From Aestuariivirga sp. (GTDB lineage Bacteria; Pseudomonadota; Alphaproteobacteria; Rhizobiales; Aestuariivirgaceae): a stretch of DNA of 64,000 nucleotides. The notes under the pieces are model-generated. The model was not told where the DNA came from. It made no database searches and saw only the letters and a list, made by a program, of their open reading frames with translations. Below, one piece after another: positions 5,680 through 34,564 of the stretch. Made by a program: the position numbers and the translations under genes. Position 1 is the stretch's first letter. Every line of letters starts with the position of its first letter. Location: positions 16,931 to 80,930 of the forward strand of contig NZ_JADCDA010000075.1 of assembly GCF_020252405.1 (NCBI RefSeq), written 5' to 3'.

Positions 5680-8040
5680 ATGCGCGCGGCACGCATCCTG
5701 CTGGGGGCGCTGCTTGCGCTGTGCCTTGCGGTTTCCGCGGGCTTTGCGCTCGACCGCGCCATCATCGGCGAGACGGACCGCGCGCTGCAGCAGCTGCGCA
5801 TCGACCTCGACGGCGCGGGCATGCAGCTGCGGAGGCCCAACCTCAGCGACAAGGAACTCGCCAGCCTCAAGGTCACGCTCGAAAAGATCCGAACCACGGC
5901 GGCGGACAGGTCGATCAAGCTGCTTGGTCCGCTGGGAGAGGTGACGCAGCAGCTGAACTCGCTGGGCGCCGCGCCCGCCGCCGGCCAGAAGGAGGATGAG
6001 GGCGTCGCCCAATCGCGCGCCGACCTCACGGCAACGCGTGACAGGCTGCAAAGCCTCAAGGCGCAGCTCGACGTGGTCACCGTCGAGGCCGAGCAGCTTT
6101 CGAGGTCGGTGTCGAGCATACAGCGAAACCAGTTCTTCGGCCGCATCTTCGACCGCACCCGGTCCGTGTTCAACCCGCAGCTCTGGTATGACCTGGTGGC
6201 GGGCGTGGGCGTGCTGTTCACCGGTCTGTCGCTGATGCTGCGCAACTGGTGGGCGGACGTATCGCAGACGGCGCAGCCGCTGGGGCTGCTGATGATCCCG
6301 GTTTTCGTCACTGCGTTTGCTTTTGCCTTCCGGCTTCTCAAGCGGTTCTTCGCGCGCTGGCTGACGGGCTACAAGGCTTCGGTCCGCCCCATCGACAACA
6401 TGACCCGGCTGTGGATCATCCTGCGCGCCCTGATGGTGACCCTGGCGGCGCTGGCGATCCTGTTCTTGCCGATCCGCTTCGCGCTGGAGACGAGCGGCTA
6501 TTTCAGCGATGCAACGCCGCGCATGGTGATGCTGTGGGAGGCGGTGCGCGACACGGTGTTCACCACCATCTTCTATTACGTGCTCGGACGGCGCATGGCG
6601 GCCCCCGGACGCCCCGAGATCCGCATTGTCAACATGGACGAACGGTCGGCCCGGCGGTTCGCCTGGCTGGTGGGCCTCACGGCCTTCGCCGCCACCTTCA
6701 ACAAGCAGTTCGGCCAGATCTCGGCCGGCATGTATCTGAGCCTCAACTACACGCAGGGGCAGTCGGCGCTGGGCGCGCTCATCCTGCTGGTGCTGACGAG
6801 CCTCGTGCTGCTGGCGCTGCGCAAACAGCCGGGCCTTCCGCAGGAGGATAAGCGGCGCTTCTATTTCGGCTGGGCCACCAGGCTGGCACCCCTCGTGTGG
6901 GCGCTGATCTTCGTCGGCTTCGCGGCGCTGGCCACGGGCTATCTGGCGCTCGGCGACTACATCGCTCACCAGATCGTGCGCACCGCCATGGTCGTGACGC
7001 TGGTGTTCCTGGTCTATTACCTGCTCGACGCCATGGTGCAGGCGAGCTTCGATCCGCAGTCGAATTTCGGCACCTTCCTTCGCCGCATCACCGGGCTTGG
7101 CGAACGCGCCATCGAGCGGCTGGGCCTGATGTTCCGCACCATGGTCGATCTCGTGCTGGTGATCGTCGGCGTGCCCACCCTGCTGCTGCTGTGGACGCTG
7201 AACTGGGTCGACATGCGGGGCCTTCTCACCACCCTCTCCCTCGGCATCACCATCGGCGACGTCACCATCCTGCCGGGAACGCTCGCCATCATGCTGGCGA
7301 TTCTGGTTCTCGGCGTCATCGCCACCAAGCTGTTCAACAGCTGGCTCGATCGCCGCATCCTGTCGGACACGCGGATCAAGAAAGGCGTGCAGGATTCGAT
7401 CCTCACGGGATCGCGCTATATCGGATACCTCCTCGCGGGCGTCTTCGCGCTCACGGCGGCGGGCGTCGATTTCTCCAGCCTCGCCATCATCGCCGGCGCG
7501 CTCGGCCTCGGTATCGGTCTCGGCCTGCAGTCGATCATCAACAACTTCGTCTCGGGCGTCATCCTGCTGGCCGAGCGGCCGATCCGGGTGGGCGACTGGG
7601 TGTCGCTGCCGGAGGGCGAGGGCATTGTCAGGCGCATCAACGTGCGGTCGACCGAGATCGAGACCTTCGATTCCTGTTCGATCATTCTGCCGAATTCGGC
7701 TCTGGTCACCGAAGCCGTCAAGAACTGGACCCACAATGACGACATGGGCCGCTTCTCGGTCGACGTGGTGGTCGACTACGACACGGACGCCGAGGTGATG
7801 CGGAAACTGCTGCTCGACACCGCGAGGGCCCACCCCAAGGTTCTGAAGCATCCCGCCCCCGTGGTTCTGCTGACCAGCTTCGGCAAGAACGGCCTCGAAT
7901 TCGTGGTCCGGGCCTTCGTCGCCGACGTGCTGACGGGCGCCCAGGTCGCAAGCGACATCCGCTTCGCTCTTTTGTCGCAATTCCGCGGCATGGGCATAAC
8001 CATTGCCCAGGCCGTGCCGGTGGTGCAGGCGGCGAAGTGA
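5680..8040 (+). CDS. MscS-family mechanosensitive ion channel with DUF3772-like N-terminal region
   Basis: 786 aa, multi-TM; GALGLGIGLGLQSIINNFVSGVILLAERPIRVGDWV MscS signature. Confidence 0.92.
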   Translation: MRAARILLGALLALCLAVSAGFALDRAIIGETDRALQQLRIDLDGAGMQLRRPNLSDKELASLKVTLEKIRTTAADRSIKLLGPLGEVTQQLNSLGAAPAAGQKEDEGVAQSRADLTATRDRLQSLKAQLDVVTVEAEQLSRSVSSIQRNQFFGRIFDRTRSVFNPQLWYDLVAGVGVLFTGLSLMLRNWWADVSQTAQPLGLLMIPVFVTAFAFAFRLLKRFFARWLTGYKASVRPIDNMTRLWIILRALMVTLAALAILFLPIRFALETSGYFSDATPRMVMLWEAVRDTVFTTIFYYVLGRRMAAPGRPEIRIVNMDERSARRFAWLVGLTAFAATFNKQFGQISAGMYLSLNYTQGQSALGALILLVLTSLVLLALRKQPGLPQEDKRRFYFGWATRLAPLVWALIFVGFAALATGYLALGDYIAHQIVRTAMVVTLVFLVYYLLDAMVQASFDPQSNFGTFLRRITGLGERAIERLGLMFRTMVDLVLVIVGVPTLLLLWTLNWVDMRGLLTTLSLGITIGDVTILPGTLAIMLAILVLGVIATKLFNSWLDRRILSDTRIKKGVQDSILTGSRYIGYLLAGVFALTAAGVDFSSLAIIAGALGLGIGLGLQSIINNFVSGVILLAERPIRVGDWVSLPEGEGIVRRINVRSTEIETFDSCSIILPNSALVTEAVKNWTHNDDMGRFSVDVVVDYDTDAEVMRKLLLDTARAHPKVLKHPAPVVLLTSFGKNGLEFVVRAFVADVLTGAQVASDIRFALLSQFRGMGITIAQAVPVVQAAK

Positions 8041-31688: not shown

Positions 31689-31946
31689 CAGCACGGCTCC
31701 CATTCCCGGCGTTGCGGGCAATCGTATTTGTCATTTTTGAATTGCAAAAGTGCAGGGGAATTGGCCGCAAGTCAACGGCGCGCAGCCAAATGGCGCAGGA
31801 TATCGCAGCGCAAACAGTATGTTGCAGTGCGACGGTTGCCCCTAGCAGATGCCCCCAAATGCCAAAGTAACGGGTTTCAATGCGATTCACTTTCCTGATA
31901 TGGAGGTGAAAACAACCGGAAGTAAAAAACGGGTCGAGGTCGCCAT

Positions 31947-32426
31947 ATGAACCTGAAGGAAGTTCTGAGAGGGGTCAAAATCACGTTGGACGAAGGAAAG
32001 TGGCAGGAAGGTCATGTACCACGTTCGGCCTTCCCTCTATCCGGGTTGTCGAACAAGCGATACAAATATGGCCCAGATTACAAATGGCGCGTAGTGCGAT
32101 TCCAATGCGTCGGCGAGGTATGTCGAGTGCTAATCATCTTGAATGAGGACAAACAGATTTTTCGCGCAACGCTGGGCGTTGAGGACAACGGCGACATGCG
32201 AGTGCTCTGTCAGTTCGAGTACCACGCTTCAGAACCCGGTTGGCATTGTCACCTAAAGTTAGATGATCATTCAAGAGTGGAACCGGGTTATGCGAGGAAG
32301 ACCGCTCGCCGTTGGCCGGCTAGGCACGCCAAACATTCAAGAACAGATTTTAACGTTACGATCAGGTCTGGTGTGTCGGTGGCTGCAGAGCGCTTTCGCT
32401 TCAAGGCTCAGGGCGATCTAATATGA
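31947..32426 (+). CDS. Hypothetical protein, partner of downstream DUF1828-type protein
   Basis: 159 aa, no family recognised; visibly lower GC than neighbours; TGA overlaps the next ATG (ATGA, 32423-32426). Confidence 0.65.
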   Translation: MNLKEVLRGVKITLDEGKWQEGHVPRSAFPLSGLSNKRYKYGPDYKWRVVRFQCVGEVCRVLIILNEDKQIFRATLGVEDNGDMRVLCQFEYHASEPGWHCHLKLDDHSRVEPGYARKTARRWPARHAKHSRTDFNVTIRSGVSVAAERFRFKAQGDLI

Positions 32427-33202
32427 ACAGAGAAAACTTCTGTGAAGCGATTTGTTCAGAGCTACAGCTGCGGACTGTGCCTCTGGGATATGTCCTCAAG
32501 ACCCCTTTTCTTAAGGATGACGGTGAGAGTATTGCAATCTACATCCGTAGAAGCTCAGCTGACAGCAAGTTTTATAGACTTGAAGATGATGGCGAAACTG
32601 TCGCCGCCTTGGAAGCAGTAGGAGTCGATTTTGATAGCGAGAGTCGTCTGGAGGCTCTAGCAGATTTGCTTCGAACTCACCAAGCCAGCTATGACGAAGC
32701 TGGCTCAGTACTGCATACAGAATATTTTCTTGAAGACGAAATTCCGGCCAGGGCGATTTCATTCATGTCGCTGATGAACCGAGTCTTTGATCTTTCTCTA
32801 CTGGCAAAGAATAGGGTTCGAAGCAGGTTTAAGGAAGACCTCATCAAGCTGGTCGAAGCCCAATTCAGTGGTACGGCCCGGATCAGAATTGGTGAACCTA
32901 TTCGCGAAACCATGAAGGACTACATCGTCGACATTGTTGTCGAAGGTCGTGACGGAAGAATTCTGGCCATTTTCGCGGGCACATCCGAAGTCAAGGCGTT
33001 AGAGGCACTTTTGTTCGTCAATGAACAGAAAAAACAATTGCTATCTAACGTGCGCGCGATGCTAGTTCTTGAAAAGGCAAAGCCTGCCGACATCAAGGAA
33101 AGGACGTTATCACGAGTAATTAACTCCGAGATACGTCTGGCTTCTATGGATGGTGAGGCGGTCGCGGTCAAACAAAAGCTAGAGGACAGCCTGCTCCACT
33201 AA
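32423..33202 (+). CDS. DUF1828/DUF1829-like domain protein
   Basis: N-terminal ..TPFLKDDGESIAIYIRRSSADSKFYRLEDDGETVAALEAVGVDF pattern of DUF1828; C-terminal segment DUF1829-like. Assignment from memory of family pattern. Confidence 0.65.
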   Translation: MNRENFCEAICSELQLRTVPLGYVLKTPFLKDDGESIAIYIRRSSADSKFYRLEDDGETVAALEAVGVDFDSESRLEALADLLRTHQASYDEAGSVLHTEYFLEDEIPARAISFMSLMNRVFDLSLLAKNRVRSRFKEDLIKLVEAQFSGTARIRIGEPIRETMKDYIVDIVVEGRDGRILAIFAGTSEVKALEALLFVNEQKKQLLSNVRAMLVLEKAKPADIKERTLSRVINSEIRLASMDGEAVAVKQKLEDSLLH

Positions 33203-33241
33203 GCGATTACCGACCTTTGAAAAAATCCTCGTTTGGCTGTC

Positions 33242-34564
33242 TTACAGCGCGTGCAAGCGCGTGTCGGACTGGTCCAGGCGGCGGCGGATCTGGGTGATGA
33301 GGAGCGACTCATCGGGTGCGCAATTGCCGTAGGTGAGGGGCTCGCCGGACTTGATCGCCTTCAGCACCTTCGCCCCCTGGGCGAGGCCCAGGGGCACGGC
33401 GTTGGCGTTGCGGGCCTCGGCGTGGGTCATGGCCCAGGCGCGGTAATCCGTTTCGCCGATGCGGCCGAGGTTTTCGCCCGGCGAAAGATCGCGCTTGGCG
33501 ACGGTGGCGCATTCGGCCACGGGCTGAGCCAGCGGCGCCATGTCGGCCTGGCCATGCAGCACGGCGCGGGCGGCGGAGAGCGGCACTTCGAGGCTGGTGA
33601 GATGATAGGGGCGCGTCAGGGCAAAATAGGGACCCTTGCCGACCTTGAGGTCGATGAGGCGCTCTTGCAGGCGCGGGTGATCCGTCGTCACGATGCAGAA
33701 GACGCCGGGGGCCACACCCTTGCCGATGGAATAATCCACACAGCCCTTCCTGGAGAGCACGCCGCCATGTTCCTTCGGGATCAGCACCGAGGCGAGTTCG
33801 TCTCCCGCCGCCGCGGGGCCATGCATGCCGGGCACGTCCGGCACGAGGCCGGTGCAGTTGGCGATCGCCACCATCTCCACCATGGTCTTGGAGCCGTCGA
33901 CGAATTCGACCAGCATGCGGGCATTCATGTTGCGGGATCTGGCCTCCGCCTCGTAGTCGGCGGGGACGGCGTCCCATTTGAGCGGATTATTCTTGCCCTT
34001 GCCGGCGCAGACGACCTCAAGGCCGATGGACTGGGCGAAGCCGATCAACTCCAGCGTGGCGGCGGGCTCGTCGCCTGCAGCACCGGTGTAGACGACGCCG
34101 GCGCGCTTGGCCTCCCCGTGCAAATGGCGGCCGATGGTGATGTCGGCCTCGACATTGAGCATGACGACATGCTTGCCGTTGGCGATCGAGTCGAGCGCGA
34201 ATTGCGCGCCGGTGTTGGGATTGCCCGTGGCGTCGATCACCACGTCGATGCGCGAGGACCTGGCGAGCACCGCCGGGTCTGACGTTATGGCGATGCGACC
34301 GGTCCCGATCGCGGCATCGACGGCCGACGGCGTCTCGGCGTAGACGGTGCGGTCTTCCGTGAAGCCCGCCATGGCGGCGGCGGCCCTGGCCTGGGGCGGG
34401 CGCATTTCGGCCACGGCGCCCAGGCGCAGGCCGGGCATGCGGTTCAGCTGCACCATGATGTCGGCGCCCATCTGGCCGCAGCCGGCAAGGCCGATGGTCA
34501 CGGTCTTGCCCGCCTCTTCGCGGGCTTTGAGTTCGGCAACGAGCGGGGAGACACCTGCGATCAC
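33242..34564 (-). CDS. NAD(P)H-dependent oxidoreductase with homoserine-dehydrogenase-like and SAF domains
   Basis: TIGLAGCGQMGADIMVQLNRMPGLRLGAVAEM Rossmann; VVIDATGNPNTGAQFAL; C-terminal AKRDLSPGENLGRIG SAF-like. GTG start at 34564 (GTGA overlap with upstream aldolase). Confidence 0.8.
   Translation of the reverse strand: MIAGVSPLVAELKAREEAGKTVTIGLAGCGQMGADIMVQLNRMPGLRLGAVAEMRPPQARAAAAMAGFTEDRTVYAETPSAVDAAIGTGRIAITSDPAVLARSSRIDVVIDATGNPNTGAQFALDSIANGKHVVMLNVEADITIGRHLHGEAKRAGVVYTGAAGDEPAATLELIGFAQSIGLEVVCAGKGKNNPLKWDAVPADYEAEARSRNMNARMLVEFVDGSKTMVEMVAIANCTGLVPDVPGMHGPAAAGDELASVLIPKEHGGVLSRKGCVDYSIGKGVAPGVFCIVTTDHPRLQERLIDLKVGKGPYFALTRPYHLTSLEVPLSAARAVLHGQADMAPLAQPVAECATVAKRDLSPGENLGRIGETDYRAWAMTHAEARNANAVPLGLAQGAKVLKAIKSGEPLTYGNCAPDESLLITQIRRRLDQSDTRLHAL

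Follow-up and report, generated by a model that had tools for sequence, protein, structure and literature searches.

A DUF1828 gene pair inserted in an Aestuariivirga chromosome, with relatives in phages and IS1595 transposons

What is a compact, AT-rich pair of genes doing between a divergent ABC permease gene and an oxidoreductase gene of Aestuariivirga sp., and does it represent a system that has escaped description? A first-pass annotation of the 64,000-nucleotide stretch of DNA analysed here (the window) had singled out two open reading frames joined by an ATGA stop/start overlap, had judged them more AT-rich than their flanks and had proposed that they form a horizontally acquired two-component module. 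Its reading of the gene order, of the overlap and of both flanks was accurate (Table 1), and the compositional step is pronounced: GC content is 0.492 in the inserted segment (31826-33242) against 0.659 in the rest of the window, where no other stretch of 1417 bp falls below 0.608 (mean 0.660, sd 0.019). Horizontal acquisition is likewise borne out by empty sites in five genomes of the same genus (G029, G019, G001, G006 and G031), in which the permease and oxidoreductase genes adjoin across a short intergenic region; these sites make the pair an insertion of foreign DNA. In the alignment with G029, homology extends up to window position 31825 and restarts at 33243, within the stop codon of the oxidoreductase gene. 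About 1.42 kb was inserted, slightly more than the two ORFs take up, containing the pair and little else and breaking no gene. Neither direct nor inverted repeats were found at the ends of the insertion, the window holds no tRNA, no Rfam element usable as an attachment site was found at the insertion, and the presumed leader region contains no consensus promoter or terminator above chance. In three further genomes of the genus (G018, G011 and G026; loci L109, L110 and L111), 8-11 kb of other genes lie between the flanking permease and oxidoreductase genes, the contents of this region having been listed for G018 only.

Table 1. Features of the gene pair in the window, and IS1595 elements that carry its relatives
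Feature	Position in window	Strand	Description
Inserted segment	31826..33242	.	49% GC; missing from five same-genus genomes (blastn/MAFFT of intergenic regions)
Presumed leader/promoter region of the pair	31826..31946	+
OrfA	31947..32426	+	159 aa, ATG start; small beta-rich protein, presumed effector
Conserved E91-x-H93 ... W99-H100-x-H102 motif of OrfA	32217..32252	+	No variation at E91, H93, H100 and H102 among 15 aligned sequences
ATGA stop/start overlap (translational coupling)	32423..32426	+	4-bp overlap recurs in most relatives
OrfB	32423..33202	+	259 aa, ATG start; DUF1828 protein, presumed partner or antitoxin/sensor
DUF1828 domain of OrfB	32501..32785	+	Residues 27-121, PF08861, E=1.3e-13
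C-terminal PD-(D/E)xK-like domain of OrfB, without E-x-K (predicted)	32870..33199	+	Residues ~150-259; Foldseek, alignment
L005 element			2808 bp; 8-bp target duplication GGGAAAAT
L006 element			4324 bp; 8-bp target duplication ACAAGATA
L021 element			4041 bp; 8-bp target duplication AATTTCTT
L022 element			3404 bp; 8-bp target duplication TTTTTCTT
L106 element			2522 bp; 8-bp target duplication GAAATATG

Neither protein has a housekeeping assignment. OrfB had been taken for a DUF1828-type protein, and its Pfam match agrees; to our knowledge, the DUF1828 domain, though widespread, has no assigned function. OrfB also matches PDC-M24B (PDLC04539, E=1.1e-15, residues 23-145), a component of a candidate system in PADLOC-DB, and, along almost all of its sequence (residues 4-245), phrog_5059 (1.5e-23). 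No Pfam match to DUF1829 (PF08862) was obtained in OrfB, and one was obtained at locus L037 (7.3e-32). OrfA, listed initially as unrecognised, indeed has no match at E<=10 in any of Pfam, NCBIfam, PADLOC and PHROGs. Its AlphaFold2 model (pLDDT 84.5, pTM 0.83) is a beta-meander for which fold searches against the PDB and viral models returned nothing significant (best PDB E 0.057, low TM); matches to galactosidase folds were dismissed for their low TM. A sequence search for solved structures in the OrfA and OrfB families found none. The invariant residues of OrfA include K11 and L76 in addition to those of the motif in Table 1, with G114 nearly invariant. In the model, the strand bearing E91 and H93 and the strand bearing H100 and H102 form a hairpin and, judged from the secondary structure, these four residues would cluster.

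Do the two genes belong together? Homologues of OrfA have a patchy distribution, given that they occur in 2 of 100 relatives and in 8 of 398 genomes from the order, with one doubtful case among the eight (weak matches in G100 and G1042, which contain internal stops, were not counted); others reside in one Rhizobium phage, in viral contigs and in genome contigs. The adjacency expected of a two-component module is fully conserved: at all 19 distinct OrfA loci, the window and 18 further ones, a DUF1828 gene lies directly downstream, and in most cases the two overlap by 4 bp (frameshifts interrupt OrfA in L033 and OrfB in L124). Because homologues of both proteins, always paired, recur at 18 further loci, the two ORFs cannot be ascribed to chance. 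Seen from the side of DUF1828, a small ORF containing an H-x-H motif precedes the gene at 15 of 19 other places from a class and phylum sample (four of these being OrfA loci that also figure in the former count); at one place the upstream ORF is decayed and at three there is none, by our own count. These upstream partners fall into several families, namely the OrfA type, DUF6978 (PF22398, which is PDC-M24A), a HIHRAT-like type and the L045 type. What emerges is a pairing rule whereby DUF1828 follows a small protein of one of several types that share an H...HxH core. Adjacency being conserved, the GC deviation real and a housekeeping assignment absent for both proteins, none of the three outcomes named as refuting the first-pass proposal came about.

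Plasmid records searched with both window proteins yielded no relative, a scan of genome contigs with the single OrfB sequence and viral scans with A2 and A7 yielded no match, and E. coli genomes contain nothing that matches the L045 pair at the DNA level. At L027 (1099-2229, minus strand), DUF6978-like and DUF1828 frames run together and the HxH is altered (PHPYIYRED), as in a decayed or fused PDC-M24 pair. On plasmid pAOF1 of Acetobacter orientalis (L056:5001-6208), small pieces annotated as 'prophage protein' make up a DUF6978-like stretch, and a 258-aa 'prophage protein' comes immediately after it.

Might the small partners share an origin? OrfA resembles the others in place, size and a K...H...HxH pattern. 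The HIHRAT-like partners, found in Gammaproteobacteria and Pseudomonas phages, have K19, L66, H88, H96, H98 and G108 in the same order as OrfA, as well as the same DUF1828 partner and position, and the HIHRAT and DUF6978 profiles are related to each other (hhalign 86%). A comparison of OrfA with HIHRAT scored 26.6 in hhalign, equalled by 1 of 200 column shuffles, and 17.4 with deeper alignments, equalled by 5 of 200. At the level of profiles, this is only suggestive of one superfamily comprising OrfA and the other small DUF1828 partners. Membership of OrfA in DUF6978 itself was rejected at that level (hhalign E 0.45).

Which of the two proteins would then be active? Of the nuclease folds that the first-pass annotation had suggested looking for by structure prediction, one is found in part: the C-terminus of OrfB is predicted to be PD-(D/E)xK-like, but the E-x-K is absent, and OrfA has no significant fold neighbour. 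The AlphaFold2 model of OrfB (pLDDT 91.5, pTM 0.54) is good per domain, and the best Foldseek neighbours of its C-terminal part are VC1899, an archaeal repair endonuclease (2vld) and Can2 (E 1.6e-4 to 3.7e-4), a predicted match that indicates fold class only, at modest TM. Among 22 aligned OrfB-type proteins, D170 is invariant (22/22) and no conserved E-x-K is present, the respective strand having A-[ILV]-[FY] or a comparable sequence. Since D170 is invariant yet the E-x-K is missing, it appears likelier that an inactive nuclease fold serves for binding than that OrfB is an active nuclease. Conceivably, the polarity of the pair could be reversed, with OrfB attacking nucleic acid via its PD-(D/E)xK-like domain and OrfA serving as antitoxin or sensor. 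The invariance of D170 and the identity of the fold neighbours, which are nucleases and in several cases (Can2, Card1, MspJI, McrC) come from defence, would fit such an arrangement; it is nonetheless quite unlikely in our estimation, as all 22 proteins are devoid of the E-x-K and the invariant polar E/H/H/H cluster sits in OrfA.

The first-pass annotation had also pointed to prophages as a possible setting, and pairs do occur near the repressor in Rhizobium, Pseudomonas and Staphylococcus phages. In Rhizobium phage RHph_N28_2, the pair lies directly behind an S24 repressor. Staphylococcus phage 37 encodes a DUF6978-type protein (M24A, 4.7e-23) and a DUF1828 protein between repressor and integrase. 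In Pseudomonas phage 5399, a HIHRAT-type protein follows cI with one small gene between, and the gene after it, the putative DUF1828 partner, is annotated only as hypothetical. Several IMG/VR contigs have an HTH repressor-like ORF before the pair (repressors judged by eye), and at the G293 locus an S24 gene lies upstream (PF00717, 4.2e-9). The repressor side of the phage switch is a site of accessory genes expressed during lysogeny. The recurrent position directly behind CI-like genes might accordingly suggest an accessory pair with no part in defence, that is, a lysis-lysogeny regulator or host-fitness gene co-transcribed with the repressor. This explanation we regard as unlikely: the pair also occurs as free-standing cargo of IS1595 transposons and in chromosomes that lack a repressor, and in Staphylococcus phage 37 four genes separate it from the repressor.

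Five relatives (L005, L006, L021, L022 and L106) reside within complete transposons, bounded by terminal inverted repeats, CCTAATTATATACTTGACAAAG and variants, that match in 18-22 of 22 bp and by perfect 8-bp target duplications. None of 300 random placements in the window reached 18 of 22, an imperfect control given that the window is more GC-rich. The transposase is of the IS1595 type (PF12762, DDE_Tnp_IS1595, 4.9e-31 and 1.4e-29 in two elements), those of the other elements being 47-70% identical to that of L005 (tblastn). L105 retains one transposon end and transposase fragments, and a transposase remnant lies directly upstream at L004 (by eye). The L022 element is probably non-autonomous, because its transposase (L022:7071-8035) is split in two frames. 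Additional cargo consists of an N6/N4 DNA methyltransferase whose C-terminal part is Mrr-like in the L006 element (6478-7974, minus strand) and, in L021 (9454-10838, plus strand), of two genes encoding 298 aa and 163 aa, the latter with apparent membrane segments; neither gene matches Pfam or PADLOC. At L005 (6262-6429), L006, L021, L105 and L106, DUF1828 is followed by a small ORF that bears a [ML]L.TPPKPH-like motif; these are exactly the five IS1595-borne loci with a convergent transposase, and the other OrfA loci checked do not have this ORF.

Transporter IS (tIS) of the IS1595 family, which carry passenger genes, are already well established (Siguier 2009, as cited in PMC5704250 and PMC3129680), and the five relatives resemble them in having an IS1595 transposase, inverted repeats of ~22 bp and 8-bp duplications around pair and transposase. 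Titles and abstracts in the literature yielded no paper describing IS1595 elements with a DUF1828 pair as cargo. The window copy differs from a tIS: no IS1595 transposase was found in its genome and no terminal inverted repeat or 8-bp target-site duplication around the pair. On these grounds the idea that it represents an intact IS1595 element was rejected; it is stranded in the chromosome without transposase or recognisable ends.

Compact, coupled genes on mobile carriers would also be expected of a selfish toxin-antitoxin (TA) pair that stabilises phages and transposons by addiction, with defence at most a side effect, and the antitoxin-like nature of the DUF1829 subunit in HipAD would agree with this. 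Toxicity is only an assumption of that explanation, however, and addiction is hard to tell from defence by sequence; we give it a low probability, similar to that of reversed polarity.

How might the pair then serve its carriers? The explanation that we hold with slightly better than even confidence is a mobile module of the PDC-M24 kind, carried by temperate phages and IS1595 elements and most likely directed against phages as a TA or abortive-infection pair, in which OrfA is an effector restrained by OrfB. Defence of the carrier appears most likely because OrfB matches PDC-M24B, because of the position on the repressor side and because a DUF1829 subunit is part of HipAD. Carriage as IS1595 cargo, in one element together with the methyltransferase bearing an Mrr-like end, counts in favour of this explanation, as do the strict pairing, the foreign origin of the insertion and the patchy distribution. 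Against it count that genes beside a repressor can have other functions in the lysogen, that OrfA has no confident fold match, that DUF1829 is not detected in OrfB by sequence and that other PADLOC candidates can fail. Taken separately, a function in defence or as TA is probable, and the exact polarity, with OrfA as effector and OrfB as its restrainer, is a tentative assignment. We envision a scenario whereby the pair is kept and exchanged as cargo by phages and transposons and would be expressed in the lysogen. OrfA, a predicted beta-sheet protein with its E-H-H-H cluster, would act as a hydrolase of the metal-dependent or acid-base type, possibly a nuclease; OrfB might bind and restrain it via the degenerate PD-(D/E)xK fold and make it responsive to a phage or DNA cue, and the module would protect the carrier against other phages. 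A bolder possibility, which we consider speculative, is that OrfA is the first member of a new family of effectors in phage defence (E-x-H ... H-x-H beta proteins) under DUF1828 control and that IS1595 shuttles the module, along with other cargo such as a methyltransferase-nuclease, between phages and chromosomes. If so, IS1595 transposons would move small, jumping defence units. Leads for following up these alternatives are the residues to mutate, the carriers (the repressor side of phages and IS1595) and a subfamily that defence-finding models miss on the side of the small protein.

Does the pair finally constitute an undescribed system, for which the first-pass annotation had held it the best candidate in the window? 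One half of this suggestion stands: the OrfA family is missed by all libraries and, as far as our tools reach, this family and the carriage of the module by IS1595 are new. The other half does not, since the combination of DUF1828 with a small upstream DUF6978 protein is already the PADLOC-DB candidate PDC-M24; as a general kind the pair is a listed candidate and is not categorically new. We found no paper naming PDC-M24 in the literature, and two other PADLOC candidates, PDC-M63AB and PDC-S04, failed to protect their native host (PMC12409345). A validated point of comparison is HipAD (DS-6), a two-gene TA-like defence system in which a DUF3037+DUF1829 protein is the antitoxin-like partner of the HipA kinase (PMC13092281). 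HipAD shares with PDC-M24 the DUF1829 domain, the usual C-terminal half of PDC-M24B; it differs from the present pair in that its effector is a kinase and its partner combines DUF3037, rather than DUF1828, with DUF1829. The likeness to PDC-M24, defined by M24A (DUF6978, PF22398) and M24B (DUF1828+DUF1829), is closer. A small gene precedes a co-oriented DUF1828 gene with a 4-bp overlap, the sizes correspond, both are carried by prophages, the M24B model recognises OrfB and other DUF1828 genes do have DUF6978 upstream. Unlike M24B, OrfB contains no detectable DUF1829, and the M24A/DUF6978 models match neither OrfA nor the OrfA-family proteins of L004, L009, L031 and L032. Because failure of a defining feature, here the M24A component, bars membership, we do not file the pair as PDC-M24, and we refer to it as a variant whose mode of action is probably similar to that of PDC-M24.
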